From Mesodorylaimus sp. YZB2_4 (taxonomy: Eukaryota; Nematoda; Enoplea; Dorylaimida; Dorylaimidae), in contig JASANH010001278.1 in NCBI GenBank assembly GCA_030248295.1, forward strand, positions 613,501-677,500: a stretch of DNA of 64,000 nucleotides. The letters run 5' to 3'. The notes below the pieces were generated by a model. The model saw nothing but the letters and a program-made list of their open reading frames with translations. It was not told where the DNA came from and did no database searches. Shown here piece by piece: positions 2,706 through 64,000 of the stretch (positions are counted from its first letter, which is position 1; the number at the start of each line of letters is the position of its first letter). A program made the translations under genes and the position numbers.

Positions 2706-4095
2706 GAGAACGATTCCCCATTCTGGTGCGACCAGGAGATTAGTTCTCGCTCGATTCTCGATGCTTAGTTTTCAAATGGCGAAGCCTTTTTGCCATCTTC
2801 GTCATATTGCATGAAAATCCCACACAGGTATTCTCCACTTGTATGTCTGCGCCTGAGGGGAAGGTCTGGAAATCCAGCAAACATTGAAGATGTTTTCGAG
2901 CAAGATGACCTTGTCCTTCGCAAGATCCAAAATCCTAAAGTATTCACAATGACCACGCGTATCCACTAGCACCTTCTGTTATGAAAAGTTGTCATATCCA
3001 ATAAAGCGTGTCAAAAAGTTCAATAAAGTCAAAATGTCATGAAACTTGTAATACGGTAGGCTTTATCCTCAATAGCCTAGCTTATTGAACTTAGCGCTTG
3101 GCATCTGAAAAGCTATTCTTCGCAGCTAACGCAAGTTCATTGACACAGGGTAGCTGTCTTGTACGAGCCTCCTGATTATGGTCCTACTTGCAATGCTTGC
3201 AATAACGAGAGGTCGTGCTGCCTGCTGAATGGGAAGAGGAGTCCCGACTACGAGATAAGAAGCCATGCTAATCGTAAGAAACACGCCCAATGAAAGAGAG
3301 CATTTGCGTGCAGAGGCGTTTCCTATAGTAATACATGCCCCTGAGACTGCAACCTGCAACTGCAGATAGCACACGCGCCGCTATTCGAGGTTTCATAGCA
3401 GATCAGACGGGTTAATTATGTTCGGTGATACTGCTCCGCTTCTGCTGGTTTCTGCCCTATGTAACATGAGTCCGTTGCTTATGGAGTTTATATATTGAAT
3501 ATCCTCTTTTTTGTTTCCTTTCTGAGCAGTCTCCCTGCTAGGACACATTATATTTAGGCAAGGGGCAAACAGCGTGAGGCACCCCAGTGCATGTGATGAC
3601 GCCTGTCATGATGTTTGATTTGATATGATTTCATCTTAAATCGTTTTCCCGCCTCAGCCGAATTCGAAAGAACAATATCCTTGGCATATTGCATGTGCAC
3701 ATTTACCAAATATTGGGTGCTAGTACGGGTATCGGTTGCTGATTTCCTGCTTAACATGTTGGGTGCATGCTGGCGGGCGTACACTGCCTTCTGTAACTGC
3801 TGCAATTCTATACGTGCCCTAGTGTCAACTTTAACACCTTAGGGCACTTCATTTGTACAGTAAGTTGGAGTGCAGTCGCTTCAGTGCGTTACCTGTGCTG
3901 TATAGCTACTACGCTTGGCAAATGAGTTTTTGTGGATGAAAACCAAATTCACGCGTATTTTACTACAAGCCGTTGTCACGCTAAGTGATTACCATTCAAG
4001 ATATCACGAAGATAAAATGCAGGACAATCTGCGCTGAGGGTGGGAGAAAATGATAGAGCCAGTAGCTATCAACGAGGGGAGGCGTAAGCGGATAT
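2706..4095. other. Intergenic, no gene supported
   Basis: Only short frames of up to about 80 codons without splice or family support are seen. A minus frame at 3374-3126 has two hydrophobic stretches but no recognisable motif. The region is the 3' flank of the collagen gene. Confidence 0.6.
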
Positions 4096-5053
4096 TTAGT
4101 GCTTAGCACTACGACGTGGGCATGGACAGTACTGGGCGTCCGGGCCGCGCACTCCAGGTGGACCAGGTGGGCCGGTTGGTCCTAGAAAGGTAATGCTAGG
4201 TGAGTGATGGGAATCATCAAGGGTCCAATGCACTTACCTCTCTCTCCATTGCCACCAGGCTGTCCAGCTGGGCCGGGTGGGCCAGCTGCTCCAGGTGCAC
4301 CAGGGTTACCAGCGGGGCCACGGTCTCCAGGAGCGCCAGCTGGTCCAGGTTCTCCACGACCACCAGCCGCGCCAGGGTCTCCCTTAGTGCCAGAAGTGGC
4401 GTCGGCACCCTTGTCTCCAGCTGGTCCAGGAGCACCATCTCTGCCTCTTTCTCCGGTGGGCCCAGTGGGTCCGGGTGGTCCAGCACCGCCGGGTCTGCCG
4501 GAACCTCCTGGAGCACCAGCGGCTCCCTTGACGCCTGCAGCACCAGCTGGTCCGGGTGGTCCAGGTGGTCCAGGCGGGCCAGGTGGGCACCCTGAAACGA
4601 AGATACTATGACTGACCGTCATACATGCTGGAACAAACTGGGCCACTTACACAAGCATTGGCCGTTCGGGTGCAAGTGGACAGGTGCGTAGTTGCCGGGC
4701 AGACCTGGGAAACCAGCAACGCCTGGTTCGCCGGGAATACCGTCTGAACCTGGCTCGCCAGGAGCGCCAGCGGGGCCTGGTGGGCAGGCGTTGTTAGCAT
4801 TGCAGTTGCATACCCCAGCTTGACGGGCCTTCCTAGCCAGTGGGACTTGAAGTTGGGCCTTTTGCTTGAGCGATGAGATGTCGTTCCAAGCTTCGTTGGC
4901 CAGTACATTGAACTCGTCCATGTCGTTCTCGACCATCATGCGCACAGTGGTGATCTTCTGGTAGACCATGGGCACCATGACGATGCATGACATGAGCGTG
5001 ATCACACTTAAGGCCGAAGAGGCCAAGGCAGCAATGTAGGCGGAGGTCGTCAT
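4096..5053 (-). CDS. Nematode cuticle collagen
   Basis: Structural protein of the nematode cuticle, secreted by hypodermis. Exons are 5053-4651, 4591-4238 and 4181-4096; the two introns (59 and 56 nt) have GTAAGT donors and TTTCAG/TTTCTAG acceptors. They join in frame to a 280-residue protein, a usual length for the family. Residues about 8-30 form the membrane-like anchor of the cuticle collagen N-terminal domain. RKAR at about 74-77 is a furin-type cleavage site, followed by a Cys cluster (82, 84, 90), a short Gly-X-Y block, a second Cys pair (133, 136), a long Gly-X-Y block with few breaks, and a tail [14 protein letters not shown] with the paired Cys typical of this family. The start MTTSAYIAA is the only ATG that puts the anchor at the N terminus, and a TATA box lies upstream. 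Which named collagen it corresponds to cannot be told. Confidence 0.95.
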
Positions 5054-5123
5054 GATGATCCAAACCTGACTTTCTTCACTTGGGGCACCTAGCCACTGAC
5101 TCTGCTCCGCAGCGGGTTCCTGG

Positions 5124-5130
5124 TTTTATA
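5124..5130 (-). promoter_or_regulatory. TATA box of the collagen gene
   Basis: TATAAAA on the minus strand, in the context GCAGTATAAAACCAGG, 71 bases before the ATG. This predicts a transcription start around 5095-5100 and a short leader. No splice acceptor is needed between it and the ATG. Confidence 0.6.
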
Positions 5131-8098
5131 CTGCGCCTATTACGCCTGAGCATTGTTCCAGTTCATTGGTGAGGCCGTTTTAGCAACAGCCAAGCGCAAG
5201 GTGTCATCGCAACTGTAATCTGGCACCTTAATGCATTCCACAGGTCAATCGTGCGAGTTAGTGCTACTTCTTTTACACGTTTGTAACAGTTGATCTACAC
5301 GCAAGTTCTTTCTCCCTGCCCACTCATCTATAACCTACTTTTTGTTTCACTTGATTGATCCTGATTCCGGTTTTTCACAACTTGGAAGGTGTGTTACATG
5401 AGTTCGGGTGGGCGTAACCTAGTCATTAGTTATGTACTGTGAGTACCCTTCGTATGCAATTTACAAATGCAGATCTCCTGCTCGAAAATTTGCGCAAAGT
5501 CCCCGTCGCATATATAAACTGGTTTAGTAGAATATTGTGCGAGTGCGAGACATGTAGTCCCACCTCTCGGCAAAACTGTACTGGTAAATGAGCGCGCAGA
5601 ATAGCAGAGCCATGTGCTGATGATGTTCGCGGTACAACTGAGTCTGTATTACTGAAGGGGGTGGCCGAAAACCCAGGGCAACCAATCAAGTCTTTCTGAC
5701 CTAGTCCGTGGATGAAACATCACCTTGACGGGTGACGCACCCAACTGCGAGCTCCGTGCAAAGGATCGTTGCCATTCGAGCCTCTGCAATAGGGCTGACA
5801 CAAACAAATGTGTACGCTAAAAGCCTTGCAAAAAAACTGAATAAAAAACCTCGCAAAACTTATGATCAAAAAATTCCGGATGCCCGAAATCCTTTCACGA
5901 TGAAAAGGTAGCCTACGATTTTTCTAACGGAAAGTCCTTGATTTTTTTAGCACTTGAACGAAAAGCTCAAGATACAGTACATAAATAAAGACAATCACTT
6001 TAGTAAGTACTTCCGGTAATATAACTATTCAAAAGTTGAAAATTTTGTTTGACCAGGCTTGCGTTTGATGTTTCAGATACCTTTCAGAAAGCGACAGTAA
6101 AAGGCTATGAAAACTTGAACAGTGATCACCCTGCCACGAACAGAAATCACCTGTGCAGAATTCCGCAGCTGGGACATGTGAGGGGGGCTTTTTGCCTCAG
6201 CGTCAGTACCAGGCGCACTAATGTTCACGTGAGCTGGTTCTCTATCTGACACCCCAGATCCGTACATATCAATCCGTCCACCATCCCAAGTTTTCACATC
6301 TTCGCATTCTGGAGGCCAGAACTGATGCATGTTTGCATGGAATAATATCTTTTCGAGCTTCCCAAACGCCAAGCGAATCAGGGTTGGACGGAATTGAATT
6401 CCTCGAGTGTGGCATTCTGTGGTTGGCCAGGCTGCGCTTTGACAGTCGAGCAAACATTTAGCCGTCCTAGAAGAAGGAAGATCGAGTATTGAGCTCACTG
6501 TGGATAAATGCCAAATGCTAGGACAAATCTATCCAGTAACTGCGTGCAGGAGGTCGTGTAGACACACCTAGGAACTTCCAAGAGGTAAAATGTATAGTAT
6601 GTATGATGTTGTACAGTATGTAAAGTGTCATATAAGAGTCACAGAGGTGATGAGAGGCACAAGTCTTTGCATACGTACAGCATGTAACATAGCCGTATAT
6701 CACGTGTGCAGTTATGGCAGCGAAAAGCTTATTTTGTAAGGAGTCAGTCACCTATCGGGAGGCCCTACCTTCGAAGCCTGAGCACCCTGTTTTCTCTATC
6801 CCTGAGCTCACTGATAGTGAGTCGCGCATGCCAGCCGCTACTGACTGACAGACTGATTTTACATCACCAAAATGACTTTGCAACCCATTCGAAGGGGCAC
6901 AGGCTGCTGTCAACCCTAACAGTTCAGAAGTTTGAGAAAGCAACTAAGGTGTGTAGTGAGCGTGTGTAGTCCTCGATTTGAATGTGGCGCCATTGCTATC
7001 CTGCGCATCAAGCTTGTCTGCTTGTGCGCGGGCTGCGTGAGGATAAGAAAGTGTGGATGGAGCTGAATTGCAGGAAAAGTGGAGCAGCGTTGCCAACGTA
7101 GTGGAATTCCACTACTTTGGCGGATTTGGGGTGTCCGTAGTGGCGTAGTGGCCACTATGGTGGTTTTCCATGTGTGATGACCACGCAGTGAATCGTAGTG
7201 GGAAGGGTAGAGTGCCAAAATCCGGAGCTCCTAACACCTAAGTCCTCGTATTGCCCAAAAATTAATAGAGCCTAAGAGAGCGATGTCTTCTTTTTTGGCC
7301 AAAACCGAGTTTAACATCGTTTATTTTGTAAAATTAAACCCTCTTCTACGCCTTCACCTTTTCTGTGCAAAAATAAGAATCAGGTTGCCAGGACCGACCA
7401 GATCACATTGCCGTTGCCGTATATGGCAATTTTTTTGCCATGAACACGTATGCTCGCCTGCTGCGCCAGCCGAAAAGCCTCGTCAAAAACAGTAGGGCAT
7501 CGGATCAGATGGGCAATCGAGGTGTTCCGGTTTAGGAACCGTTCCGGATTAGGGCATTTTACCCTACTTATTATTTGGAGATTGCTTTGGGAAGATTTGC
7601 TCAGTTATGATCAGATTCATGAGTTATGATCATGATTAGGTATTTCCCTTGCCATAAATCGAAACGTCCGAAGCAGAACTTCCAAAACGTGCCAAATATC
7701 TGCGAGGCGTCATGGGCTGTATCTACTGGCTGGGCTGCTGCGCGGCATCACGTACATACGCCGATCGATTTATCAATCCGCCCACCTAAACTCTAAATTT
7801 TGATAGATTGAAAGCTATTTCTTATCCAGGTTGAACCAAAAATGTTGCATTATCGCTCTGTTGCAACGAAAGTTTTTAGTGGCTGTTGTAGTGGATTTTG
7901 GAAAGATGTGTAGTGGCTGGTAGTGGATTTCAGGTGTCCTGCCAGTGGAACTCTTTTTCCGCATCTTCCAGCGGAGTTGAGGCAGTTGCCTCGCTCTCAC
8001 AATCAGTGGTGACCTAGGTGTCGCCTAGGTTGGGTTTCCGTACTTGGTCCAGGGCCTATGAGCTGGGAGCCCATCCTTAGAGAATAGAAGGGGCGTCG
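5131..8098. other. Intergenic; one dispersed repeat copy, otherwise no gene supported
   Basis: No frame here has both length and motif support. The 141-codon minus frame at 6498-6073 shows no known domain. Repeats of a GTAGTGG-type motif occur at about 7095-7165 and 7870-7950. A dispersed repeat copy lies at about 5635-5795 (listed separately). Confidence 0.5.
5635..5795 (+). repeat. Dispersed repeat R1, copy 1
   Basis: Shares blocks GTATTACTG, CAGGGCA.CCAA and GGATGAAACATCACC.TGACGGG.GACGC with 17990-18200 and 22040-22215. The blocks are in the same order in all three places, with divergence between them, so this is an old interspersed repeat and not a local duplication. Confidence 0.6.
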
Positions 8099-9888: not shown

Positions 9889-9894
9889 ACTTGA
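9889..9894. other. Target-site duplication, left (ACTTGA)
   Basis: ACTTGA immediately precedes the first base of the inverted terminus and recurs immediately after its last base at 14797-14802. Extending the inverted repeat from the inside stops exactly at these hexamers. Confidence 0.8.
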
Positions 9895-10089
9895 AGTAGT
9901 ATATGTGTGCGTCGTGCTCCTGCAGCTAGCTGCGGGCGAAGCCCCCCAGCTTATCATACCAGCTTATTATCACCCCTAAGCCACTGACCACTAGCTGAAA
10001 GCCCAAGCCCCGCAGGGCCTTAATTAGCTTACCACCCTAATAATCGTCAGTCCTTAGAGACCCTTCTTATCACTGTGAGCCCCCTTATC

Positions 10090-10170
10090 AGTCATTAGCT
10101 GAACCTTATCAATATCTAGTCATTAGCTGAACCTTATCACTATCTAGTCATTAGCTGAACCACATCATCG
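10090..10170. repeat. 28-bp tandem repeats, left arm (about 3 copies)
   Basis: CTTATCACTATCTAGTCATT-type units; reverse complement of the eight-copy array at 14385-14600. Confidence 0.85.
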
Positions 10171-10257
10171 ACTAGTCAGCAAGTCAAGCTCCAATCGCCT
10201 TATCATATCACAATAGCGATGATCCATAATCAGTATTTCTGGAAAAGTGAAAATTTT

Positions 10258-10330
10258 TGCGCCCGTCAAGATTCGAACCCGCCTTACCCGGGTGGAAGTC
10301 GAAAGTTCTACCAGGTTGCGCCACGGGGGC
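10258..10330 (-). other. tRNA-like sequence in left arm (pol III A and B boxes)
   Basis: On the minus strand GTGGCGCAACCTGGTAGA resembles an A box and GGTTCGAATCT a B box. The ends can pair at six of seven acceptor positions. Against the right-arm copy, changes cluster in the anticodon and T-arm region, and the stem is weaker here. It is probably a tRNA-derived promoter and not a working tRNA. Confidence 0.5.
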
Positions 10331-10436
10331 CGTTTAGAGAGAGGGTCGAGTGTGCACAGTGAAGACAATGGATTATTTACACGCGCAGACATACATGTCA
10401 TCGAAACCTACAGCGGAGCATTCAGAGCCGCTCGTT

Positions 10437-11700
10437 TAGTGGCAGGAGCAGCTCCTCCTTGGTGAGGAGCAGCTCGGAGCTGCTCATTTTGTTGCAGGAG
10501 CAGCTCCTCCTTGGTGGGGAGCAGCTCGGAGCTGCTTATTTTGTGGCAGGAGCAGTTCCTCCTTTGTGGGGAGCAGCTCGGAGCTGCCCATTTTGTTGCA
10601 GGAGCAGCTCCTCCTTGGTGAGGAGCAGCTCGGAGCTGCCCATTTTGTTGCAGGAGCAGCTCCTCCTTGGTGAGGAGCAGCTCGGGGCTGCCCATTTTGT
10701 TGCAGGAGCAGCTCCTCCTTGGTGAGGAGCAGCTCGGAGCTGCTCATTTTGTTGCAGGAGCAGCTCCTCCTTGGTGGGGAGCAGCTCGGAGCTGCTTATT
10801 TTGTGGCAGGAGCAGTTCCTCCTGGGGGGAGCAGCCGACCCCATTGCAGGAGCAGGTCCTCCTTGGTGGGGAGCAGCTCGGAGCTGCCCATTTTGTTGCA
10901 GGAGCAGCTCCTCCTTGGTGAGGAGCAGCTCGGAGCTGCCCATTTTGTTGCAGGAGCAGCTCCTCCTTGGTGAGGAGCAGCTCGGAGCTGCCCATTTTGT
11001 TGCAGGAGCAGCTCCTCCTTGGTGAGGAGCAGCTCGGAGCTGCTCATTTTGTGGCAGGAGCAGCTCCTCCTTGGTGGGGAGCAGCTCGGAGCTGCTCATT
11101 TAGTGACAAGAGCAGCTCCTCCTTGGTGAGGAGCAGCTCGGAGCTGCCCATTTTGTTGCAGGAGCAGCTCCTCCTTGGTGAGGAGCAGCTCGGAGCTGCC
11201 CATTTTGTTGCAGGAGCAGCTCCTCCTTGGTGAGGAGCAGCTCGGAGCTGCTCATTTTGTTGCAGGAGCAGCTCCTCCTTGGTGGGGAGCAGCTCGGAGC
11301 TGCTCGTTTTGTGGCAGGAGCAGCTCCTCCTTGGTGAGGAGCAGCTCGGAGCTGCCCATTTTGTTGCAGGAGCAGCTCCTCCTTGGTGAGGAGCAGCTCG
11401 GAGCTGCCCATTTTGTTGCAGGAGCAGCTCCTCCTTGGTGAGGAGCAGCTCGGAGCTGCTCATTTTGTTGCAGGAGCAGCTCCTCCTTGGTGAGGAGCAG
11501 CTCGGAGCTGCTCATTTTGTGGCAGGAGCAGCTCCTCCTTGGTGGGGAGCAGCTCGGAGCTGCTCATTTAGTGACAAGAGCAGCTCCTTCTTTATGGGAA
11601 GCAGCTCGGAGCTGCTCATTTTGTTGCAGGAGCAGTTCCTCCTTGGTGGAGAGCTGCTCAGAGGTGCTCATTTCTTGGCAAGAGCAGGTCCTCCTTGGTG
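10437..11700. repeat. 52-bp palindromic tandem repeats, left arm
   Basis: The unit begins GGAGCAGCTCGGAGCTGCTC and continues ATTTTGTTGCAGGAGCAGCT then CCTCCTTGGTGA. Each unit contains two perfect palindromes: GAGCAGCTC-G-GAGCTGCTC and GGAGCAGCTCC. About 24 units are seen, with small variants (GTTGCA/GTGGCA; GTGAGG/GTGGGG). One unit near 10820-10850 is broken. The outermost inner units near 11640-11700 are degenerate. Open frames through these repeats are by-products of the repeat. Confidence 0.95.
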
Positions 11701-11904
11701 GGAACTGTTTGGATCTGCTCATTTTATGGCAGAGCAGCACTTTGGTAGCAGGAGTAGCTCCTACTTTGTGGGGACCTTTCCATTTTATCAGGTGAGCGGC
11801 AAATGTGAGAGCATACACCATGCCAGTTTCCTACAAATCCAGTCAGGGCGTTCACTTTGTACCTTAGGGGGCTTTACTTCATGGTCCATGTTGCACTTAT
11901 AAGC

Positions 11905-12230
11905 CTACAACCCCGCTCATGTTAGCGGGGTAGCTGCTCATGTTAGCGGGGGAGCTGCTCATGTTAGCGGGGGAGCTGCTCATGTTAGCGGGGAGCTGCT
12001 CATGTTAGCGGGGAAGCTGCTCATGTTAGCGGGGGAGCTGCTCATGTTAGCGGGGGAGCTGCTCATGTTAGCGGGGAGCAGCTCATGTTAGCGGGGGAGC
12101 TGCTCATGTTAGCGGGGGGAGCAGCTCATGTTAGCGGGGGGAGCTGCTCATGTTAGCGGGGAGCAGCTCATGTTAGCGGGGGAGCTGCTCATGTTAGCGG
12201 GGGGAGCAGCTCATGTTAGCGGTGGAGCAA
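11905..12230. repeat. 21-bp tandem repeats, left arm
   Basis: GCTGCTCATGTTAGCGGGGGA-type units, about 15 copies, with G-run length varying from four to six and occasional inversion of the GCAGCT/AGCTGC core. They form the inner boundary of the arm next to the gene. Confidence 0.9.
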
Positions 12231-12356
12231 TCACTGCCCTGATGCTTCCTTATATTCTTCCTCATATGAATGTGAAGAGAGGGCTAACTGCCAAGTGACG
12301 ATAAAAGGCAACAGTTTTGTTGCATCTGCCAGTTTCATATTTTTTCGAGTTGGCGA

Positions 12357-12998
12357 ATGGTTCGGTTTGGATTACTCTCGAAAATGGTCAACGATAACGG
12401 TAGCTCGTCTGGCGAAAATGGCGACGATGAATGCACAAAATGTGACAAGACATTTTGTTCGAAATATTCATTGAGGCGTCACATGAAATCTGTTCATGGA
12501 AAGCGAGCGCGGACCAGTACTGTTGATGGTAGCAAGGATGGTGATAGCGAAGAAGCGGATGGCGGCGGAGACAATGACGATGACGATGAAATAGAACCAT
12601 CCAATAAAATTTGGCGGACATTCTTGAAACGGATCTTGCGTAATTGGAGGGAAGATGATGATTTTCAAATGCCAGAAACGGAAGATGATTTTCTAAACCT
12701 CAAAGATCAAGTCCGAGAGGAGTTGTACAGTCAAACGGTCAAACTTTTGAACGACTACAATGCACTGGTCGATTCCCCAATATATAAAAAGATTCGAGTC
12801 ACTGAAGATCGCCTACTACAATTGATGGATGACGAAGATAGTGATGATCAGCAAGAAGCCTTCCAAACGGCCTTCGATCAGAGGAAAACATTGCTATTGA
12901 ATTTTTTGAATGACAACCTAGATGTAGTTGAAAATTATGCGGAAACATCAGACAGTGGAGAGGAAGATGGAGAAGAAGAAGAAGAGGACAGTGATTAA
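12357..12998 (+). CDS. Acidic C2H2 zinc-finger protein carried by the foldback element
   Basis: A 213-residue intronless protein in the unique centre of the element. One C2H2 finger lies near residues 26-47 (CTKCDKTFC, then LRRHMKSVH; C-x2-C-x12-H-x4-H). A basic patch KRAR follows, then an Asp/Glu-rich linker, a central part without recognised domain (RTFLKRILRNW to RLLQLMDDE) that looks helical, and a very acidic tail ending EEDGEEEEEDSD. The ATG at 12357 follows a possible TATA-like GATAAAAG about 55 bases upstream; a second ATG at 12384 also precedes the finger. A polyadenylation signal lies at 13083. No transposase motif (DDE, RNase H) is seen. It could bind the element's own repeats or be a captured host gene; both are inference. 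The intact frame suggests selection or recent origin. Confidence 0.8.
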   Translation: MVRFGLLSKMVNDNGSSSGENGDDECTKCDKTFCSKYSLRRHMKSVHGKRARTSTVDGSKDGDSEEADGGGDNDDDDEIEPSNKIWRTFLKRILRNWREDDDFQMPETEDDFLNLKDQVREELYSQTVKLLNDYNALVDSPIYKKIRVTEDRLLQLMDDEDSDDQQEAFQTAFDQRKTLLLNFLNDNLDVVENYAETSDSGEEDGEEEEEDSD

Positions 12999-13082
12999 TC
13001 CACCCAACTGATTTTATAAAACTACTGTGCACAAACATTAATACCTTGATATTCAATCATGATCAATATTTATGTTTCTTTT

Positions 13083-13088
13083 AATAAA
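13083..13088 (+). terminator. Polyadenylation signal AATAAA of the element's gene
   Basis: AATAAA 85 bases after the stop codon at 12998 and just before the right-arm repeats. Confidence 0.5.
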
Positions 13089-13097
13089 TAGCTACTC

Positions 13098-13305
13098 ACC
13101 TGCTAACATGAGCAGCTCCCCCGCTAACATGAGCAGCTCCCCCGCTAACATGAGCAGCTCCCCCGCTACCATGAGCTGCTCCCCCGCTAACATGAGCAGC
13201 TCCCCCGCTAACATGAGCAGCTCCCCCGCTAACATGAGCAGCTCCCCGCTAACATGAGCAGCTCCCCCGCTAACATGAGCAGCTACCCCGCTAACATGAG
13301 CGGGG
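13098..13305. repeat. 21-bp tandem repeats, right arm
   Basis: TAACATGAGCAGCTCCCCCGC units, about 10 copies, inverted relative to 11905-12230. They begin 9 bases after the AATAAA of the central gene, so the transcript probably ends at the edge of the arm. Confidence 0.9.
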
Positions 13306-13529
13306 TTGTAGGCTTATAAGTGCAACATGGACCATGAAGTAAAGCCCCCTAAGGTACAAAGTGAACGCCCTGACTGGATTTGTAGGAAACTGGCATGGTG
13401 TATGCTCTCACATTTGCCGCTCACCTGATAAAATGGAAAGGTCCCCACAAAGTAGGAGCTACTCCTGCTACCAAAGTGCTGCTCTGCCATAAAATGAGCA
13501 GATCCAAACAGTTCCCACCAAGGAGGACC

Positions 13530-14125
13530 TGCTCTTGCCAAGAAATGAGCACCTCTGAGCAGCTCTCCACCAAGGAGGAACTGCTCCTGCAACAAAATGA
13601 GCAGCTCCGAGCTGCTTCCCACCAAGAAGGAGCTGCTCTTGTCACTAAATGAGCAGCTCCGAGCTGCTCCCCACCAAGGAGGAGCTGCTCCTGCCACAAA
13701 ATGAGCAGCTCCGAGCTGCTCCCCACCAAGGAGGAGCTGCTCCTGCAACAAAATGAGCAGCTCCGAGCTGCTCCTCACCAAGGAGGAGCTGCTCCTGCAA
13801 CAAAATGAGCAGCTCCGAGCTGCTCCTCACCAAGGAGGAGCTGCTCCTGCCACAAAACGAGCAGCTCCGAGCTGCTCCCCACCAAGGAGGAGCTGCTCCT
13901 GCCACAAAATGAGCAGCTCCGAGCTGCTCCCCACCAAGGAGGAACTGCTCCTGCCACAAAATGAGCAGCTCCGAGCTGCTCCCCACCAAGGAGGAGCTGC
14001 TCCTGCCACAAAATGAGCAGCTCCGAGCTGCTCCCCACCAAGGAGGAGCTGCTCCTGCAACAAAATGAGCAGCTCCGAGCTGCTCCTCACCAAGGAGGAG
14101 CTGCTCCTGCCACTAAACGAGCAGC
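13530..14125. repeat. 52-bp palindromic tandem repeats, right arm
   Basis: About 12 units of the same 52-bp repeat in reverse orientation to the left-arm array, with the degenerate end towards the centre of the element, mirroring the left arm. Confidence 0.95.
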
Positions 14126-14221
14126 TCTGAATGCTCCGCTGTAGGTTTCGATGACATGTATGTCTGCGCGTTCAAATAATCCATTGTCTTCACTGTGCAC
14201 ACTCGACCCTCTCTCTAAACT

Positions 14222-14292
14222 GCCCCCGTGGCGCAACTGGTAGAACTTTCGGCTTCCAATCGGGCGAGATGGGTTCGAATCTTGCCGGGCGC
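14222..14292 (+). other. tRNA-like sequence in right arm (pol III A and B boxes)
   Basis: GTGGCGCAACTGGTAGA (A box) and GGGTTCGAATCTT (B box). The ends GCCCCCG and CGGGCGC pair at six of seven positions. A stem TTCGG/TCGGG (with wobbles) closes a loop CTTCCAA, which would give anticodon TCC. T runs follow within 15 bases. The D and T stems are poor, so a tRNA-derived pol III promoter is more likely than a functional tRNA. Confidence 0.5.
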
Positions 14293-14384
14293 TAAACTTT
14301 TCACTTTTCCAGAAATACTGATTATGGATCATCGCTATTGTGATATGATAAGACGATTGGAGCTTGACTTGCTGACTAGTCGAT

Positions 14385-14600
14385 GATATGGTTCAGCTAA
14401 TGACTAGATAGTGATAAGGTTCAGCTAATGACTAGATAGTGATAAGGTTCAGCTAATGACTAGATAGTGATAAGGTTCAGCTAATGACTAGATAGTGATA
14501 AGGTTCAGCTAATGACTAGATAGTGATAAGGTTCAGCTAATGACTAGATAGTGATAAGGTTCAGCTAATGACTAGATAGTGATAAGGTTCAGCTAATGAC
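14385..14600. repeat. 28-bp tandem repeats, right arm (about 8 copies)
   Basis: The 28-bp unit starts GGTTCAGCTAATGACTAGAT and ends AGTGATAA. It is repeated with almost no variation. Confidence 0.9.
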
Positions 14601-14796
14601 TGATAAGGGGGCTCACAGTGATAAGAAGGGTCTCAAAGGACTGACGATTATTAGGGTGGTAAGCTAATTAAGGCCCTGCGGGGCTTGGGCTTTCAGCTAG
14701 TGGTCAGTGGCTTAGGGGTGATAATAAGCTGGTATGATAAGCTGGGGGGCTTCGCCCGCAGCTAGCTGCAGGAGCACGACGCACACATATACTACT

Positions 14797-14802
14797 ACTT
14801 GA
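14797..14802. other. Target-site duplication, right (ACTTGA)
   Basis: Exact repeat of 9889-9894, directly after the terminal ATACTACT of the element. Confidence 0.8.
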
Positions 14803-34963: not shown

Positions 34964-37434
34964 CTGATTCGGCTGTGATTGAATTGTGTGTTAAATGAGA
35001 GATGCTATGCCAGATTCTTCTTGCCTTATCACTTTGGTGCTAGTGAATGCTGTCGTGTAGTTTAGAATGAGAGAATTAGGAGTGCCTAGGTGCCTGAAAT
35101 GGTCGAGATAATTGTGATATTGCTACGGTTTTTTAGTTAACCTGATTTTGATCGATTTGTTGTTACAGTTGGAACTGGAGAAAATGAATTTAACATCGTT
35201 GGAGGGGGGATACAACTCAAACATTTTCCAGATGGCAGAAAGAAACTATTCTTCGCATAGACATCAGTTAGAAAGATAGACAGTCCAAAGCTTGCCAGCA
35301 AATACTGCTCTTCCCATATTCATCTCCATAATTATATATTTTTATATTCATGCTGCCCATAACCGAATTCAATCAATATGCACGATATCTTCGTCTTCAA
35401 CATCATTTTTATCGTCTGACTCTGCAAGGAAAACATTTTCTATCACGCCAACACTTATGTCCTTCACATTTTCCACACCCGCCCCCCCCCCCCGCATGCA
35501 TATTTCAAATATGTACATACTCTGCTAGGCAGACACGCGTCAAAACCGGCAGCAGCGTTTGTTTGGGACTGCAAAGAGAGCGTGTGCGTGGTTGCAGAGC
35601 ATCGGCCGTGCGTAGGAGCTCGCGCGCTTATTGTTGGAAAACACGCTGAGGGCGAAAGTCCAAGTCTAAGGACGAATTAGTCTAAGCCAAGGGCGAAAGA
35701 AACTGATAAGACATGAAAGAAACCAGGGACCGCGATATTCGCTAGAAATAAAACCCTTTTCACCTACTTAGAATTATTGACTGTCTGCATCCAATTCACG
35801 TATGCGAATGCTTAGGGATCATTAATACAGAACACGCTTCGTGACTCCCCATGGGAAAACATTTCCCCATAACTGATTTAGAATCCAAGATTTTAAAATT
35901 ACTTTTTCGGCGGGTATGTTTCCTATGGTCCAATACTCGCAATCAGGAGCGAGGGCAGTAAACAGTGAGTCGGAGTGTCAGCTAGAAGGGAAGACGGTGA
36001 CGAAAGAGAGCCTATGCCAGTCGAAGCATACAAACGCATGGCAATGTATTTAGACTGGTATGCTTGGCAGGAAAACCTCCATACCATACGAGCACGAACA
36101 CCATTTCCCCCACATATTGTGTTCTAGGTTGGAGGTCGGAGGGGTCTGACCTAATAAAAGAAGCATAAAAGAACTTTGATGTTCGCTTCAAGTCCTACAA
36201 ACTTTTATCTACTTATGAGCAAACGGTCCCTGTGCTTGCTACGTTTGTTAAGGCTAGATGAAGATAGATCGTTAGCAAGGCAACTACTGGTGCCACTGCT
36301 ACAAAACCTACTATTAACTCTGCTAGTTTCAATGTGTATGTACACCCGTCACTCGGCATACCCTGTTTAATTATCCCGCCTCTCATGCAGAGCCTGCGCG
36401 AGTGGCACACGCTAATCCACCGAGTCGCTGGCTTGTGCACTCACAGACTGATGGGCCGCCAAGAAACTTTTCCAGAAGAGGAGCCTTTTTTTAAATGGCT
36501 GCTGCAAAATAATTATAGCACAAAACTTAGAAGATTTTCCTCATTCGTGTGACGACAAAAGCAGCAAACAATACCACGAATTTAAAGTTTTTTTTCTAAA
36601 ACTCAAATCACGAGGTTTTGAACAAGCAGCGTTGATTCATGATTCATGAACTACCCGCACAGAAACGAACATACAGCACTTACTCAAAATGGCGCAAGCA
36701 TCATGGATCTGATTCTCGAAGCTCTGTGGATTGGGTACTGCTGGCCCACTGGTCAAGGGACTCCCAAGCCACATTTGCCTTAGTCGGGTAGCAGCCATGA
36801 TGACAGCTACTAACCACGAGGCATGATCCCTCTGACGGCTTCGCTAGGAGCACCTTCGTCGAGAGCATCCTGTCTCCTAATCTAATGACAGGTCAGAAAA
36901 TAAGGATCCCACCGAATGATGTCTCCCGATTCTGTGTGCATTCAGTGCCAGCTGAATGACCAGCAAAGAACTCACTGAATCGCCGTTTAGAACAGCAAAG
37001 GCACTAGGTCTCTAGGCCAGAACTGCTCGTCCAAGATCGCTTTCTCAACCATCTTTTAGCTAGCGGAGATCAAAAAACCCGGTTTTTTATCCCATATCCT
37101 TAAAATTTAGGCATTCTAGCTCGCCGCTTTACGAGGATAATTTGATTATTACCTGCGATCACCAACGACTGATCACCTACCTGATGATAATCATGCATGA
37201 GCCCTTCGGACGATCGGGAGCTGAGGTCCGAAAGCCACACCCATCCCCCGCCACTTGGACCATCGAACACTCTCGCGCCGCCTCTTCTGCCAGCTGGCAC
37301 AACAGGGAGTATCAACGACACAAATTGAGGCATGGTTACTTTCGCAGCAATCGTAGTTCAAATATAAGAGCAGTAAGGTTCGAGCCCTTTTGTGCACGAA
37401 GCACTGATAGGTCGAAGAGCCGACCGTTTTTCAA
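34178..37434 (+). repeat. Segmental duplication, copy 1 (inverted relative to the others)
   Basis: Reverse complement matches 40108-46136. From 34178 to about 35470 the partners obey x + y = 80314; from about 35480 to 37434 they obey x + y = 77549. The difference of 2765 bp is the extra block 42073-44866 in copy 2. The left breakpoint is in DHTKD1 intron 17, 11 bases after exon 17. Between 34964 and 37434 no gene is supported. A SINE A/B core remnant lies at about 36760-36900 (minus). Confidence 0.9.
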
Positions 37435-37640
37435 CTCAGGGGGCGGGAGATATGAGAGACCGAAGTCTCTGGGACAAAAAACTCCGACTGGAGGTAAGGC
37501 AAGTCTCTCGAATATTCCAGACGCTGAAAAATCAACTGGAGTAATTGACCTCACCAAGCAAGCCAGGAGTTCCATCTCCCGACCGTCAAGAATGCTTGTA
37601 CCTGCAGATCAGATCAAAGTGGTTCAATCATGCCAGATCC
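37434..37640 (-). repeat. Duplicated 207-bp block, partner of 51785-51990
   Basis: Reverse complement of 51785-51990, including CTCCCGACCGTCAAGAATGC and ACTCCGACTGGAGGTAAGGC. It lies between the end of duplication copy 1 and the protease fragment. Confidence 0.8.
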
Positions 37641-37670
37641 GAAGTGTGCATCAACTATCCACTCTGACCC

Positions 37671-37693
37671 GGGGGGGGGGGGGGGGGGGGGGG
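37671..37693. repeat. Poly(G) run (about 23)
   Basis: An uninterrupted G run. The orthologous place in the protease intron at 48857-48874 reads mixed C/A/T runs. Similar long G or C runs lie near 35485, 42056, 47438, 48760 and 59517. Confidence 0.9.
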
Positions 37694-37898
37694 CCTTACT
37701 TTAGTGCATGCATAGCCCATTTTAATGCTACTCCCATTCATTAAACCGCATGTTGGATCGCTGAAAAACATCTCAGCCCCCCCCCAGTTACTAGCATAAA
37801 TTTAAAAAATTTAGCTGTGATTGAACATCATTTCCAATATCATGAAATAGCCCAATCAAAAATGAATAATGGCGAAGGCGACAGTGTGCATTTTTAGT

Positions 37899-48021: not shown

Positions 48022-49588
48022 TTACCCGCAAGTCCTAGCTCTTCCGCATCGATTACATTGAGCCGAACCGAGTTTACGGCTGTTAACAATGTCTCTTATC
48101 CAACGATCGATAGCCAACACGGAAGTGTGCACATCGATAGCTGGTACTCCATCTCGGAAGTAACCTTCGCATATGATGCCGTACAGTATCCACTGCATAG
48201 TCGCGTGATCTTTGCACATGAGCAGTCCACCAGAGTCGCCCTAAACGAAACTAACTTAAAGGATTGGGTGCTAATTATTATAATTTCAATGAGCCGTGTG
48301 GCTGATGCCGTTTAGTGGATGAGTACAAATCATTGTGCTGAAATAATTCCTGCTCCACGTGTAGGACAATCCGAACAGCCTGTGCACGAGATAATAACTT
48401 TCATTCACGCAGGACGCTTTCGATCGAATATAGTGGCGAGCATGGCGTACAGTCATGCTCAAATTTTTTGGCTCGACGGGATGACCGAACACTAAAAATG
48501 CACACTGTCGCCTTCGCCATTATTCATTTTTGATTGGGCTATTCGGTCTCTCATATCTCCCGCCCCCTGAGTGAGCTGGTTACTCACTCTGCGGTTATTA
48601 ATTTTCACGCTGGGCCCACAAAAACCATTGGAAACAGATTATTGTTCTGTACAGCTCGTCCTGCAGTGTTCGAAAACAGTAAAGTTAATAATTATGTCAA
48701 CAATACACGTCGAGGACTATTGATATCCAGAAATTACGAAATCTGCTTAGAAAAATTGGGGGGGGGGGGGGCTGAGATGTTTTTGAGCGATCCAACATGC
48801 GGTTTAATGAAGGGGAGTAGCATTAAAATGGGCTATGCATGCACTAAAGTAGTGCCCCCACCCCCCCCCTCCCCGGGTCAGAGTGGACAGTTGATGCACA
48901 CTGTTTGGTATAACATTAAGCAACTTACTGTAACCCCATCCGGCCACATAGCACTGATCCGTTCGTTGATCGGGAAGAAATTTTTTGCCAACCGGCAAGC
49001 AAATAGGCCCCATTTGCTTGCTGATTCGCACAAGCGGAAACACTCTCATTAGTGCAACGTCATATCCTGCAGGATATTGGATGTTATAAATATTAGGTTG
49101 CAAAAATCTGATTCTGTAATTCGGATGCACGGTGATGCTTTGAGGGAACAGACTAATGATTTCTCTCGGCAGGTAGTCAGTGATGGCACGAGTGTCGTGA
49201 ACACCAGCGTACAGTTTCAAATTGTGATTAGGCACCTCGTAGGTCGTGTTGGTCACGTTGTTGTACCTGAAGACACAATGTGCTGCGGTCAGGACGATAT
49301 CGCTGAGTTGGGACGAATTGCACACTTCCACCAAGACTGCCCCGCATTCGTGCGAACCAGGAACGATCAACTTAATCATCCAAGGCCATTCATGAGCTTC
49401 AGTCGGTTCACGGGGATCGTGGATGTGTCCTCTTTGCGTTGGATAAAACATGTTCTTAATTTTGTGACCACAAGTGCCTACTTCCCGAGTTTCCTTAAAA
49501 ATTGGCGTGTCATCGTTGGTTTGTACATCTTCCATGACTTTGATACCTGAACTAGACAAAGGAGTAGAAGACATTTTAAAAACCACAT
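48022..49588 (-). CDS. Secreted chymotrypsin-like serine protease, atypical
   Basis: Exons 49588-49547, 49493-48929, 48491-48295 (3' end uncertain) and 48240-48022 give 340 aa. Exon 1 is a signal peptide, MWFLKCLLLLCLVQ, spliced in phase 0 over a 53-nt intron. Catalytic His lies in LTAAHC (about 86), Asp in YDVALMRV (about 159) and Ser in GDSGGLL (about 271). VGTCGH, WPWMIKL, GPICLPV, CYVAGWGY and the final helix AIDRWIRDIV also fit S1 proteases. Odd points: the IVGG activation site reads HIHDPREP after a possible RG cleavage; Cys191 and Cys220 both appear to be missing; and no GT donor follows exon 3, so a GC donor (ACG|GCTCAT, 54-nt intron) must be assumed to avoid stops. Intron 3 holds duplicated blocks. 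Exons 3-4 are copied at 37899-38364. Activity is uncertain; the fold assignment is firm. Confidence 0.85.
48545..48757 (+). repeat. 213-bp duplicated block inside protease intron 3
   Basis: Direct copy of 51964-52177 (GGTCTCTCATATCTCCCGCC ... GAAATCTGCTTAGAAAAATT) with about three substitutions. Absent from the truncated protease copy at 37.6-38.4 kb. Confidence 0.85.
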
Positions 49589-50698
49589 CGCTAGAGGAAC
49601 GCGGAAGGTCAGCAGGGCATGCAGTTCAACCTGACGGCTTGGGATCACTGAAGCTGAAATGAAAAATTTTTGTATAATCAAGTCAGAGACGTTATGTCTG
49701 CTTTCTTGCTCACTGCGCTTTTAAGACATGACATTGCAATTCATTCAGTATGGCATGCGACCATGCAAATAGTAGTTGCGAGCATGAAAACAATATTGGT
49801 TCACGCTCTTGGTGATGTTCCTGATGTGTAAACGACACTGGTACATTCTGGGGGGGGGAGGGGGTTATGGTTTTGTGACTCCCTGTTTGCCACATTTTTC
49901 GCAAATATACAGTAGCTGGCATCAGCGCGCTAAGTTAGGACAAGTTTGTAGATAAAAGAAGATGCATATCTATCCGACAAACACGAAAATTAAGACAGGT
50001 TTTCTGGTAGATTCGACCCAATCGGCTGAAAAGTAGAAAAGTGAAAAATGTGATTTTCCCAATTCGGGGTCTCATTATATGGGCTAATCGAGGTCCTATT
50101 GAAGGTCTTCTGACTGAAATTCGATCGGCTCAAAGACACTTTCTTCATGAGATATCAAATTTATATGGTTTTAAAGCGACCAAAAATGGGGCTTCAGCGA
50201 TATTGATCATCAAAAATCAACTCAAGTTAGACTGAGCCAGCTTTTGTAGCCAAACCAGAACCCAAACCAGACCAGGTGGCTGTTTTCGGTATTGGCTGCT
50301 TTTAGATGAAAATCATCTCTCTTCCGCTCGATTTACTATGGTTTCTCCTGATTTTTCCAAAAATTCGAATTTCGCGGTCTTTTTTGTTTTAAAAGTCGGG
50401 TATAAGGAATTAGCAGACGCCGTTGGGAACATTGAAAATTATATTCATTTTCGCGTCGAATGATGCGTCGTAGGCCGATCTAGCTTTCAAAGTTGATGTT
50501 CCCCCATCGACCCACAGGGTCGACTGGAAAAGTCACATTTTTCACTTCGCCGACTCCAGGTCGTTTGTACCGCAAACCCAGTCTCAAAGACGGCAGAATA
50601 GAGAAACAATTAATGGTATTAAGATTGCTGTAGATGATCTAATTGTCTTTTCGCAGCTCGAGGTCGTGGTAGAAAGATGTGGCTCGGCTTTTTACATA
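49589..50698. other. Intergenic, nothing recognised
   Basis: Promoter side of the protease. No TATA box is evident near 49620-49660 and there are only short frames. Confidence 0.5.
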
Positions 50699-52177: not shown

Positions 52178-53084
52178 CGGTATTTAACCAACTGAACTGT
52201 ATCTTTCTTGCATTTTCGGACGTGTTATTTACGTGTGCCCTGCAAAAATTTTGCTTATTTTGCTACTGTACATGAACTCCGTGAGCGCGGATTCTTCTTT
52301 CCCTCCTCCTACATCGTGACAATGCGCATGCAGTGCGACACGTCACAGCTGTCGCACACTACTACTTGGTGGAGCTGTGCGTTAGGTGCTTGGTGTTTTT
52401 CTTGGGCTTACGCAGCAAGCACAAACACAACGCAGTTTGTGAGGTTCGACCCAGATTTACGAAAATGAGTGAGTCCTGTTTATATACTGTAGCCAAGACC
52501 CTCTTAAAGAGTCGAAGTTATTTAAAAGTGTGAGAATCAGTGTTACTGCGATCAATATCATGCCTTCTAGAACCAGCATCGCTAACTATTTATTTCAGCA
52601 GAAGCTAGATATATTGCTATTGTTACAGAAGAGATGAAAAACTAGCCTCGAGCATGTCCAACATACAGTGCACGATATGGTTTCCGTTGTGCAGCGAAGT
52701 AGTTCAAAGATTTCTTGGCAGGAAAGAGCCTTTGGCAAAACCTTGATTCAATCTCTCCATCAGAGAAATCATTACTGCTGGCTATTTGGCACAAGATGGT
52801 GAGCAGCGACGTCTGAAACGGCGGTGCAAAATGAAAATTGCCTGTCTTATGTCCAGAAAGTGAGTGAGTTTAGAATAAGTTCGATCCTGGAAAAGAGCTC
52901 GCTTCGGATCTGGTGCAGTTTTGTCTGAGAACTTTATAACTCACCATCTGTCCGCCTGATTTGACTCGGCTCTCTATTTTCTGAAAAAATCTTGTCAAGT
53001 ACTGTAAGTCCACTAGGGTGTCTTTTAGGCCCATTCACTAATTTTTCTGTAGATAAAATTTGTCCGCTTGTTTTGTGCATAACT
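52178..53084. other. Upstream region of the serpentine receptor
   Basis: No gene supported. An acceptor-like TTTTTCTGTAG lies at 53042-53052, about 30 bases before the receptor ATG, possibly for a 5' UTR intron or trans-splicing. Confidence 0.4.
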
Positions 53085-54065
53085 ATGAACAACTCGACCC
53101 AAATCCTGGACCAAATCTCTCTCTTATCATTATCTCAGCAGGCATCCAACAATTTAGTGATGATCCTAGCATATCCTCTCGTATTCACAACAAACTTCTT
53201 TCTCATTATTACAATCCTCTGCACAAAATCTTTGAGGACAAATAAAAGCCAGCTTATGATAATGAGCCACGGTATCGTTGAGATCCTGCAATATACTACA
53301 TTTTTTGGTGTCAGTTTGAAAAGATATTTGCTTTTTTTGTATAACATTCCCGAAACTACAACACAAAAAATCTGCTTTTTCAACCAAGGCCCTCAACATT
53401 TTGGCGGTACTCTCACAGAAATAATAGTTTTAAATTTAGCCATTGATCGAGTTTTGTGCGTAGTTCTGCCACTTTATTATAAATCTTGCAAAACATCAAG
53501 ATATGTGGGCTTATTTAATATAATTCCCTGGTGTATTTGTTCGGCACAAATCACAGTCGCCTACTGGACGCTCGACCACGACCTTGTTGTCCCAGTTTGT
53601 ACTCGTGCCACTAGTTTTAATCAGAATTATATCCGTTTCCACACAGTCGAATTGAACCTTATCCTTGCCATGATAACAACCATGTACCTAAGCTTAGTTA
53701 CGATCATGTATCTTCGGTACAGAAAGGCGGACCTGAACACTGAAACACAGAAAAGTTTGTGGAGACGTCAGATGGATTTCGATATTTTTATCGCCACAGT
53801 AGTTGTAGGCGTTATTTGCGTATTTTTTTATGGTTCTAATATTGTTATGATATCAGCCATATCAAATCTCAGTCTTGTAGCAAAACTTTCAGTTTTAACG
53901 AGCGTTTTTAATTGTATCAATTCATCCTCGCATTTCTTTGTTTATCTGAAAGTAAATCGAAAATTTCGATCAGCTTTCAGAAAAGTGGTTTGTAGAAGGG
54001 ATAAGAACAAGGTGATCGGAGTGAATATCAGTTCGAACAGAAGTGGACGAAGTGATAAAGCTTGA
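53085..54065 (+). CDS. Serpentine (7TM) G-protein-coupled receptor
   Basis: A single-exon receptor of 326 aa from the ATG at 53085. The frame is open to an ATG at 52992, but that extension reads across an acceptor-like site and adds a non-membrane leader, and MNNSTQ puts a glycosylation site at the N terminus. TM1 about 24-46, TM2 about 57-78, a Cys at 97 before TM3, TM3 ending LNLAIDRVLCVVLPLYY (IDR in place of DRY, about 120-122), TM4 with Trp, a Cys in the second outer loop (VPVCTRAT), TM5, a basic third loop KSLWRRQMD, TM6, and TM7 with SSSHFFVYLKVNRKF leading into helix 8. The IDR and P-L-Y-Y pattern fits nematode chemoreceptors of the srsx or related type. Probably a chemosensory neuron receptor with unknown ligand; expression is inference. 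Confidence 0.85.
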   Translation: MNNSTQILDQISLLSLSQQASNNLVMILAYPLVFTTNFFLIITILCTKSLRTNKSQLMIMSHGIVEILQYTTFFGVSLKRYLLFLYNIPETTTQKICFFNQGPQHFGGTLTEIIVLNLAIDRVLCVVLPLYYKSCKTSRYVGLFNIIPWCICSAQITVAYWTLDHDLVVPVCTRATSFNQNYIRFHTVELNLILAMITTMYLSLVTIMYLRYRKADLNTETQKSLWRRQMDFDIFIATVVVGVICVFFYGSNIVMISAISNLSLVAKLSVLTSVFNCINSSSHFFVYLKVNRKFRSAFRKVVCRRDKNKVIGVNISSNRSGRSDKA

Positions 54066-63287: not shown

Positions 63288-63863
63288 AAGAGAAGTCGTA
63301 TGAATGCCCTGTTCCTTGGTGCGGTACAGTTTTCAAACGACTTTCCAGCTTGAGAATGCACTCGCTAAATCACGATACAAATAAGCGTCTTTAGTGCAAC
63401 AGGTGCGTTGCTCACGATCAGACGATATTATAAAGTTAAAAAAACAGAGACGTTCAAAAAGGGAGAACCCGTTTATATGACTTTTCCAAGATTTTTCTCC
63501 CATTTAGCTGCTTCAAAAGCTTCCCCCACGAGAAAAAACTCAGAAAGCATATCTTGGCTCACAAGAAATCGGAAGAAAAGTCAAAGAAAAAAAAGTGTCC
63601 TTGTTGCGGCAAGTTATACAGATCGTCGAGAACTTTAAGAAGACATGCAGCTAAGCTCAAGAAACGCCAATTCGACCAGCAGGAACCTGACGCCGCCGCC
63701 GCCAATTCAACCAGTAACGTACGGGTCAAGCAGAAATTTATTGGTGCGGTGGGCATGAGTTGCAACTGGTCAAGTATGGTTGTGGCTCAAAACCACGAAT
63801 TTCCGCTTGACGTGAACCCAAGACAAGAAAGCTCTTTTTCGTCTGCCTGCTTCACCTCTAGAA
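63288..63863 (+). pseudogene. C2H2 zinc-finger gene, internal exons, with an in-frame TAG
   Basis: Exons 63288-63402 and 63508-63863 (donors AG|GTGCGT and AA|GTAAGT; acceptors TTTTCAG and CATTTAG) join in frame. Finger 1 is CPVPWCGTVFKRLSSLRMHS then LNH; finger 2, split by the intron after CNS, is CNSCFKSFPHEKKLRKHILA then H (C-x2-C-x12-H-x3-H); finger 3, CPCCGKLYRSSRTLRRH, lacks the second His. A basic linker (KKSEEKSKKKK) lies between fingers 2 and 3. The linker between fingers 1 and 2 reads DTNKRL, then TAG (63392-63394), then CNSC, where a residue such as Lys or Gln is expected. The gene is either a pseudogene or needs read-through or a base error. It continues beyond the window; upstream exons were not found. 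Confidence 0.65.
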
Positions 63864-64000
63864 GTAAGTACTTTCGTTTTTTCTCAGGTGAGGCTGTATT
63901 TCGCTAGGTTATACCTCCGACTAAGTTCGTCCTGTGATTTCGCCAAGCTGGGCTAATCACGAGGACCCACGATCAGAAGAAAGTCCTAGATCTTTGATCA

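Follow-up and report, generated by a model that had tools for sequence, protein, structure and literature searches.

Introduction

Foldback architecture is familiar from relatives of the P and Mutator transposons, and Polintons (Mavericks) are mostly 15-20 kb in length. In a vertebrate study, Mavericks are recognized by ends of the form (AG)3//(CT)3 or (AGT)2//(ACT)2 together with a perfect 6-bp target-site duplication (TSD) (PMC8097293). We analyzed an element of 4.9 kb located at positions 9895..14796 of a 64,000-nucleotide stretch of the genome of the nematode Mesodorylaimus sp. YZB2_4, hereafter the window. This element has ends of the second of these forms, AGTAGT...ACTACT, with a 6-bp TSD, and it has the long inverted arms made of tandem repeats that define the foldback structural class. 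It probably represents a non-autonomous foldback family that is mobilized in trans by a Polinton integrase and that carries a selected gene of its own.

Three described foldback systems share part of these features. Galileo, a P-superfamily foldback element of Drosophila, has the same long internally repetitive ends, TSD-less chimeras and centres exchanged between ends, whereas it differs by the 7-bp duplications of its superfamily and a P-type transposase, the present element having 6-bp duplications and Polinton-type ends (PMC3573991). A model that had read only the letters of the window (the original prediction) had suggested FB/Galileo-like behaviour; this part is supported only by analogy with the Galileo chimeras and exchanged centres. 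Tetris of Drosophila virilis is likewise non-autonomous and has layered ends with a tandem-repeat domain, but its TSDs are of 8-10 bp, its repeats of ~220 bp, and it has no apparent protein-coding capacity. Tm1 of root-knot nematodes shares the nematode host, foldback ends, variable numbers of short repeats and non-autonomous forms, and differs by its Mutator type, TSDs most commonly of 9 bp, ~14-bp repeats and asymmetric 7-bp end motifs (PMC3169594).

With Polintons the element has in common the 6-bp TSD, the (AGT)2//(ACT)2 ends and inverted termini with subterminal tandem repeats. It differs from them by its size, the lack of a polymerase or integrase match, its different arms and its private C2H2 gene. 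The statement of the original prediction that the arms match no standard superfamily holds for the arms and not for the ends, which match Polinton/Maverick. By content the element is not a Polinton; it probably works like a Polinton satellite. No gene-carrying Maverick satellite was found in the literature searched, which covers the open literature incompletely.

A dispersed family with Maverick-type ends

The element is flanked by exact copies of ACTTGA at 9889..9894 and 14797..14802. The left outer arm (9895..10085, + strand) consists of the terminus AGTAGTATATGTGTGCG and a subterminal region, and the right outer arm (14606..14796, - strand) ends with CGCACACATATACTACT and differs from the left tip by one substitution in 195. 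Both termini, the duplication and the mirror order of the 28-, 52- and 21-bp repeats between them are read directly in the sequence, as originally described.

The 145-Mb assembly (1,067 contigs, the window copy being on contig C12) was searched with the 201-bp tip, which gave 40 scored matches of 120 candidates, and with the protein of the loop, which gave 55 matches of 67. A dispersed family was recovered in this way, as the original prediction had expected. Exact 6-bp duplications, each with a chance of ~1/4096, were found in eight of ten paired copies, on C12 (the window), C104, C11, C127, C196, C48, C250 and C37. The two others have no 6-bp duplication: the two ends of C397 are derived from different tip forms and one end of C141 is damaged, a state that recombination or decay of a copy would produce. 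When the flanks of C37 are joined, they match C162:205762-206032 across all 274 bases with 93% identity, which reveals a paralogous empty site; no such site was found in the assembly for the window copy. Comparison of duplications and a search for empty sites had been proposed as checks, and both gave positive cases. The absence of any second copy with the same tips and a 6-bp duplication had been named as fatal to the proposal; such copies exist, and because eight of ten paired copies have exact duplications an assembly artefact is hard to uphold. The family is mobile, dispersed and recently active, with Maverick-type ends and foldback arms.

The conservation of the extreme ends was analyzed on 26 tips gathered by similarity to the 201-bp tip and not by the AGTAGT hexamer. 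In 25 of them the first bases are AGTAGT, and the next ~45 bases are hypervariable between copies.

Polintons of the same genome

Polinton-type polymerase pieces are present in this genome (62 matches to PF03175) and in none of 14 control genomes. Two Polinton families start with AGTAGTTATCC and AGTAGTATATCC, and their 9-10 terminal bases are common with the two main tip forms of the foldback family. When 16 foldback elements were represented by one tip each, nine started with AGTAGTATAT, as Polinton B, and six with AGTAGTTAT, as Polinton A. Family A was traced from a degraded copy on C59 (tip AGTAGTTATCCAGGTCTCTTTGGGG); its tip AGTAGTTATCCAGG gave 14 matches at no more than three mismatches and its reversed control none, and two A ends on C311, 18.7 kb apart, flank PF03175 matches. 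Family B starts with AGTAGTATATCCCCCCC, and all ten matches to its 26-base tip are identical. Five of these ten tips are located 1.5-1.6 kb from a PF03175 match, three others 6.2 kb from a stop-free rve integrase match (frames of 319, 319 and 249 aa), and the last two have neither match, one of them reaching its contig end. In C268, one of the three rve-linked loci, PF03175 matches are also found 13.4-14.1 kb inside. Since the tips are identical and some integrase frames are open, Polinton B has probably been active recently. The B loci are on C48, C108, C268, C269, C381 (two), C448, C707, C851 and C1059, several of them near contig ends.

The description of a mobile foldback element with a private gene and Maverick-type ends is supported by the copies, their TSDs, the empty site and the terminal bases of Polintons resident in this genome, and we consider it likely, as the original prediction suggested, that the element is moved by Polinton-type machinery. 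A Polinton/Maverick integrase would accept the AGTAGT...ACTACT ends and leave the 6-bp duplications. Another superfamily as mover, either GingerRoot/IS3EU or a Mutator-type foldback transposase, has very little likelihood. GingerRoot also makes 6-bp TSDs, but its termini are mostly TA..TA and occasionally TG..CA (PMC10045372), and the termini of the element are AG..CT. In the same manner, foldback arms are present in Mutator relatives such as Tm1, whose TSDs are given as 8-10 bp (PMC3169594), against exactly 6 bp here. That Polinton A and Polinton B have 9-10 end bases in common with the element is also unfavourable to both of these movers.

None of the 62 PF03175 matches and none of the best 150 of 526 rve candidates is on C12, in a search that did not include capsid proteins, and the element is therefore not an autonomous Polinton member. 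Its other frames are found only in repeats or arms, with in addition an 85-aa frame antisense to that of the loop protein. In order to find a partner, tip matches were compared by eye with the 62 PF03175 matches and the best 150 of the 526 rve matches. The autonomous partner with the same tips sought by the original prediction did not emerge: no Polinton with the arms of the element was found in this comparison. Among the matches listed, two tips only, on C269 and C158, have a PF03175 or rve match within 20 kb inward. The first was rejected as a partner, its PF03175 match, 7 kb inward, having a Polinton B tip in front of it.

Several observations weigh against Polinton-type mobilization, or against the helper being one of the families traced here. 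Beyond the first 9-10 bases, no similarity of the element to the Polinton stretches compared was detected. A 17-bp repeat like ATACCCCTGTACAAAAC is located subterminally in those ends of Polintons A and B that were compared, and it is missing in the element; some other Polinton family could therefore be the helper. Among the Polintons, TSDs were read for family A alone: the A ends on C311 have no matching TSD and the pair on C72 matches at 5/6 positions only (by eye). Furthermore, no rve match was found inside the C311 Polinton among the best 150 of 526 candidates. On C158 (G000:C158:247756-252504), a family tip at 252504 (-) has an rve match with a 393-aa open frame 4.5 kb inward; this locus may harbour either a partner of the family or an unrelated element that happens to be adjacent. 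Polinton A or B is thus only a tentative, somewhat doubtful choice for the actual helper.

The loop gene

The unique loop (12229..13094, +), conserved in other copies, contains a 213-aa open frame (12357..12998, +) and a possible poly(A) signal AATAAA at 13083-13088 (+), directly before the right array of 21-bp repeats. As first described, the loop codes for one intact acidic C2H2 protein and no enzyme: the frame is open and the element has no polymerase or integrase match. The single C2H2 finger covers residues 25-47 (Pfam, 27.0 bits for a cut-off of 25.2). The protein has 57 D/E and 27 K/R residues; the finger stretch is basic and is followed by a basic tract, the remainder is acidic, and the C-terminal region is predicted with low confidence to be helical. 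The structure model has a mean predicted local distance difference test (pLDDT) score of 45.6, too poor for a structure search.

Selection on the gene was estimated from 22 alignable copies, by counting distinct changes relative to the majority sequence. One partially aligned copy (L030), fragments or broken copies (L032-L038) and protein matches without a cut locus were left out. The null proportion of silent changes was calculated with the transition bias of the noncoding part of the loop (22 transitions, 17 transversions) and with 1.5 times this bias. The 18 stop-free copies have 67 changes, of which 31 are silent, for a null of 0.246-0.268 (p 0.0001-0.0005; scaled nonsynonymous-to-synonymous ratio, N/S, 0.38-0.42). 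Since copies with stops are excluded from this sample, it necessarily lacks nonsense changes, and this biases the count towards the selection signal. In the four copies with stops, 12 of 44 changes are silent (p 0.40-0.53; scaled N/S 0.87-0.98). The gene is under selection in the stop-free copies and not in the four stop-bearing copies.

A search of 5.8 billion predicted proteins (E<=0.001; E<=10 for residues 78-200), by a method that requires common 5-residue words, gave no relative of the protein, nor did one of IMG/VR contigs, and the PDB gave only weak matches, nearly all to zinc fingers. Comparison of the lists of matches showed a protein match within ~6 kb of 21 of the 40 tips and none for the 19 others, some of which adjoin contig ends; the gene therefore seems to be carried by a part of the family only. 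This distribution, as well as the lack of a known transposition function, would agree with a passive cargo, captured and open only as the copies are young. Such an origin is nevertheless improbable, since replacement changes are depleted in the stop-free copies and not in those with stops, as selection on transmitted copies predicts, and since the predicted-protein and IMG/VR searches gave no relative outside this genome.

A conceivable origin of the finger is a 1,107-aa PF03175 polymerase frame on C216 (locus L097, G000:C216:60001-70000, 2812-6132, -), which has a weak N-terminal C2H2 match and is located a few kb from frames of retroelement appearance.

Separate histories of centres and ends

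Divergence was compared by mean pairwise values between the eight copies with TSD, the closest pair being taken for the arms and the columns of the tip alignment for the ends. The loop has a value of 0.46%, and the inner arm, which is noncoding (left copy at 11739..11914, +), one of ~0.45%. Divergence rises to 8.9% around the tRNA-like segment of the arms (21 pairs, from the seven copies with that stretch), and it is 4.8% for tip bases 53-195 and 20.8% for the first 52 bases. This contrast between centre and ends cannot result from selection on the gene, given that the inner arm does not code for protein. Within a copy, the left and right ends differ by 0, 0, 0, 0, 1, 2, 3 and 4 substitutions in 176-195 bases; these distances count substitutions only, as gap-counting distances are inflated for C37, C48, C141 and others, C48 having an additional gap of ~24 bases on one side. 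The pair C11 and C37 illustrates both properties, with loops diverging by 0.12% and first 52 bases by 38%, while the two ends of C11 differ at 0/195 positions and those of C37 at 3/187. Furthermore, when informative sites in the tips of 16 elements were paired, 254 of the 435 pairs failed the four-gamete test; these pairs being incompatible with a tree, the ends are mosaics. Recombination thus takes place between centres and ends, and the two ends of any one copy either stay similar or become so. The exchange of centres and outer ends between copies would be free, with the tandem arrays as its probable site, and the similarity of the two ends would be maintained or established during transposition or afterwards. 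A less favourable observation is that the two sides around the tRNA-like segment differ in C11 (11/254), C37 (5/254), C413 (20/251) and C250 (2/253); the matching of ends is therefore not uniform and, in C11, it is strongest at the tip.

Ends could be matched and shuffled solely by ectopic gene conversion, as in Galileo, the Polinton integrase performing the insertion only and Polinton replication playing no part; we give this explanation slightly less than an even chance. In Galileo, chimeric copies have divergent ends and no identical TSD, and matching ends occur with a centre of another subfamily (PMC3573991). In the present family, the two ends disagree in C397 and C141, both of which lack a TSD, and the tips are mosaic. 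The pair C11 and C37 is more difficult to explain by this way, because gene conversion would need to extend to the terminal base on either side of the element and leave flanks and TSDs untouched.

Short terminal reiterations, of which (AGT)2 is an example, are reminiscent of the protein-primed replication of adenovirus and phi29, in which one terminus is restorable from the other. Judging from the invariant (AGT)2 beside variable bases, the element may use the protein-primed Polinton polymerase, one end templating the other. Such a restoration by protein-primed copying would explain the invariant AGTAGT beside the hypervariable stretch.

Arm architecture

The three tandem-repeat classes of the original description were recovered on both sides by Tandem Repeats Finder. 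From the outside to the inside, the left arm (+) contains 2.8 units of 28 bp (10086..10161), 25.5 units of 52 bp (10425..11738), the inner unique arm and 15 units of 21 bp (11915..12228). The right arm (-) contains 8 units of 28 bp (14384..14605), 12.5 units of 52 bp (13478..14127), an inner unique arm identified by inverted-copy comparison (13302..13477) and 9.9 units of 21 bp (13095..13301). The arms are inverted copies, the longest pair reported being of 887 nt at 98%, and their repeat numbers are unequal.

A 9-bp core, GAGCWGCTC, is common to the 52- and 21-bp repeats. The element contains 102 copies of it, 82 in the 52-bp arrays and 20 in the 21-bp arrays; none is in the loop or the outer arms, and two are in the other 59 kb of the window. 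The protein of the loop is most likely an element-specific DNA- or chromatin-binding factor that would act on the arms, and the presence of one core in two of the three repeat classes makes arm binding a sharper hypothesis than in the original prediction, where it was already considered. The single finger might read the GAGCWGCTC core.

Outward-pointing tRNA-Gly-like segments (TCC) were detected by ARAGORN in both arms, at 10258..10330 (-) and 14222..14293 (+), the left one being also seen in other copies. Eight of the 22 loci scanned have such a segment, three of the eight being the window's own copy, in a set where several loci end short of the segment. The segments of the window have no Rfam match at the gathering threshold. 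An RNA polymerase III function was rejected: conservation of the boxes does not exceed that of the adjacent sequence (rank of box B, 137/245), an observation that also weighs against the explanation favoured here.

Diverged single arms were found at L089, L090 and L091 (C216, C109 and C607), with 74-75% identity over ~430 bp, from the tip to inside the tRNA-like segment. Their outside flanks are common to all three and no clear element was delimited.

Other features of the window

Outside the element, Tandem Repeats Finder detected ~21 copies of the 18-bp unit CCCACTCCGAGATCAATT at 2355-2718. A 357-aa open frame at 52992-54065 (+) matches the Srsx chemoreceptor family. By eye, another open reading frame resembles a nematode cuticle collagen, and one near the end of the window (63440-63907, +) resembles a two-finger C2H2 protein. 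Two open reading frames, at 37064-37744 (+) and 48804-49625 (-), have in common, again by eye, a short stretch VHQLSTLTRGGGG...FSACIAHFNATP beside G runs; both frames apparently read through a dispersed repeat.

Discussion

Compared with the original prediction, the new elements are the tRNA-like arm segments, the shared GAGCWGCTC core, the agreement of the ends with a motif published for Mavericks and the separate histories of centres and ends. In the mechanism that we favour, insertion by a Polinton integrase would be accompanied by the action of the element's protein on arms whose 52- and 21-bp repeats carry GAGCWGCTC. In a more extended form, which we regard as unlikely in its entirety, the element would parasitize a virus-like transposon for integration as well as for replication. 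Its ends would be co-rewritten at each round by Polinton-type copying, each copy acquiring its own matched pair, and the young gene-bearing centre would sweep through the pool of ends via array recombination, helped by the zinc-finger protein binding GAGCWGCTC.

With this element, hitchhiking on a virus-like transposon becomes open to test, and foldback architecture would be tied to integrase-based machinery. The end variants of the family are a natural set for mapping the requirements of the Polinton integrase, and the family offers a clear example of separate centre and end histories inside one transposon family.

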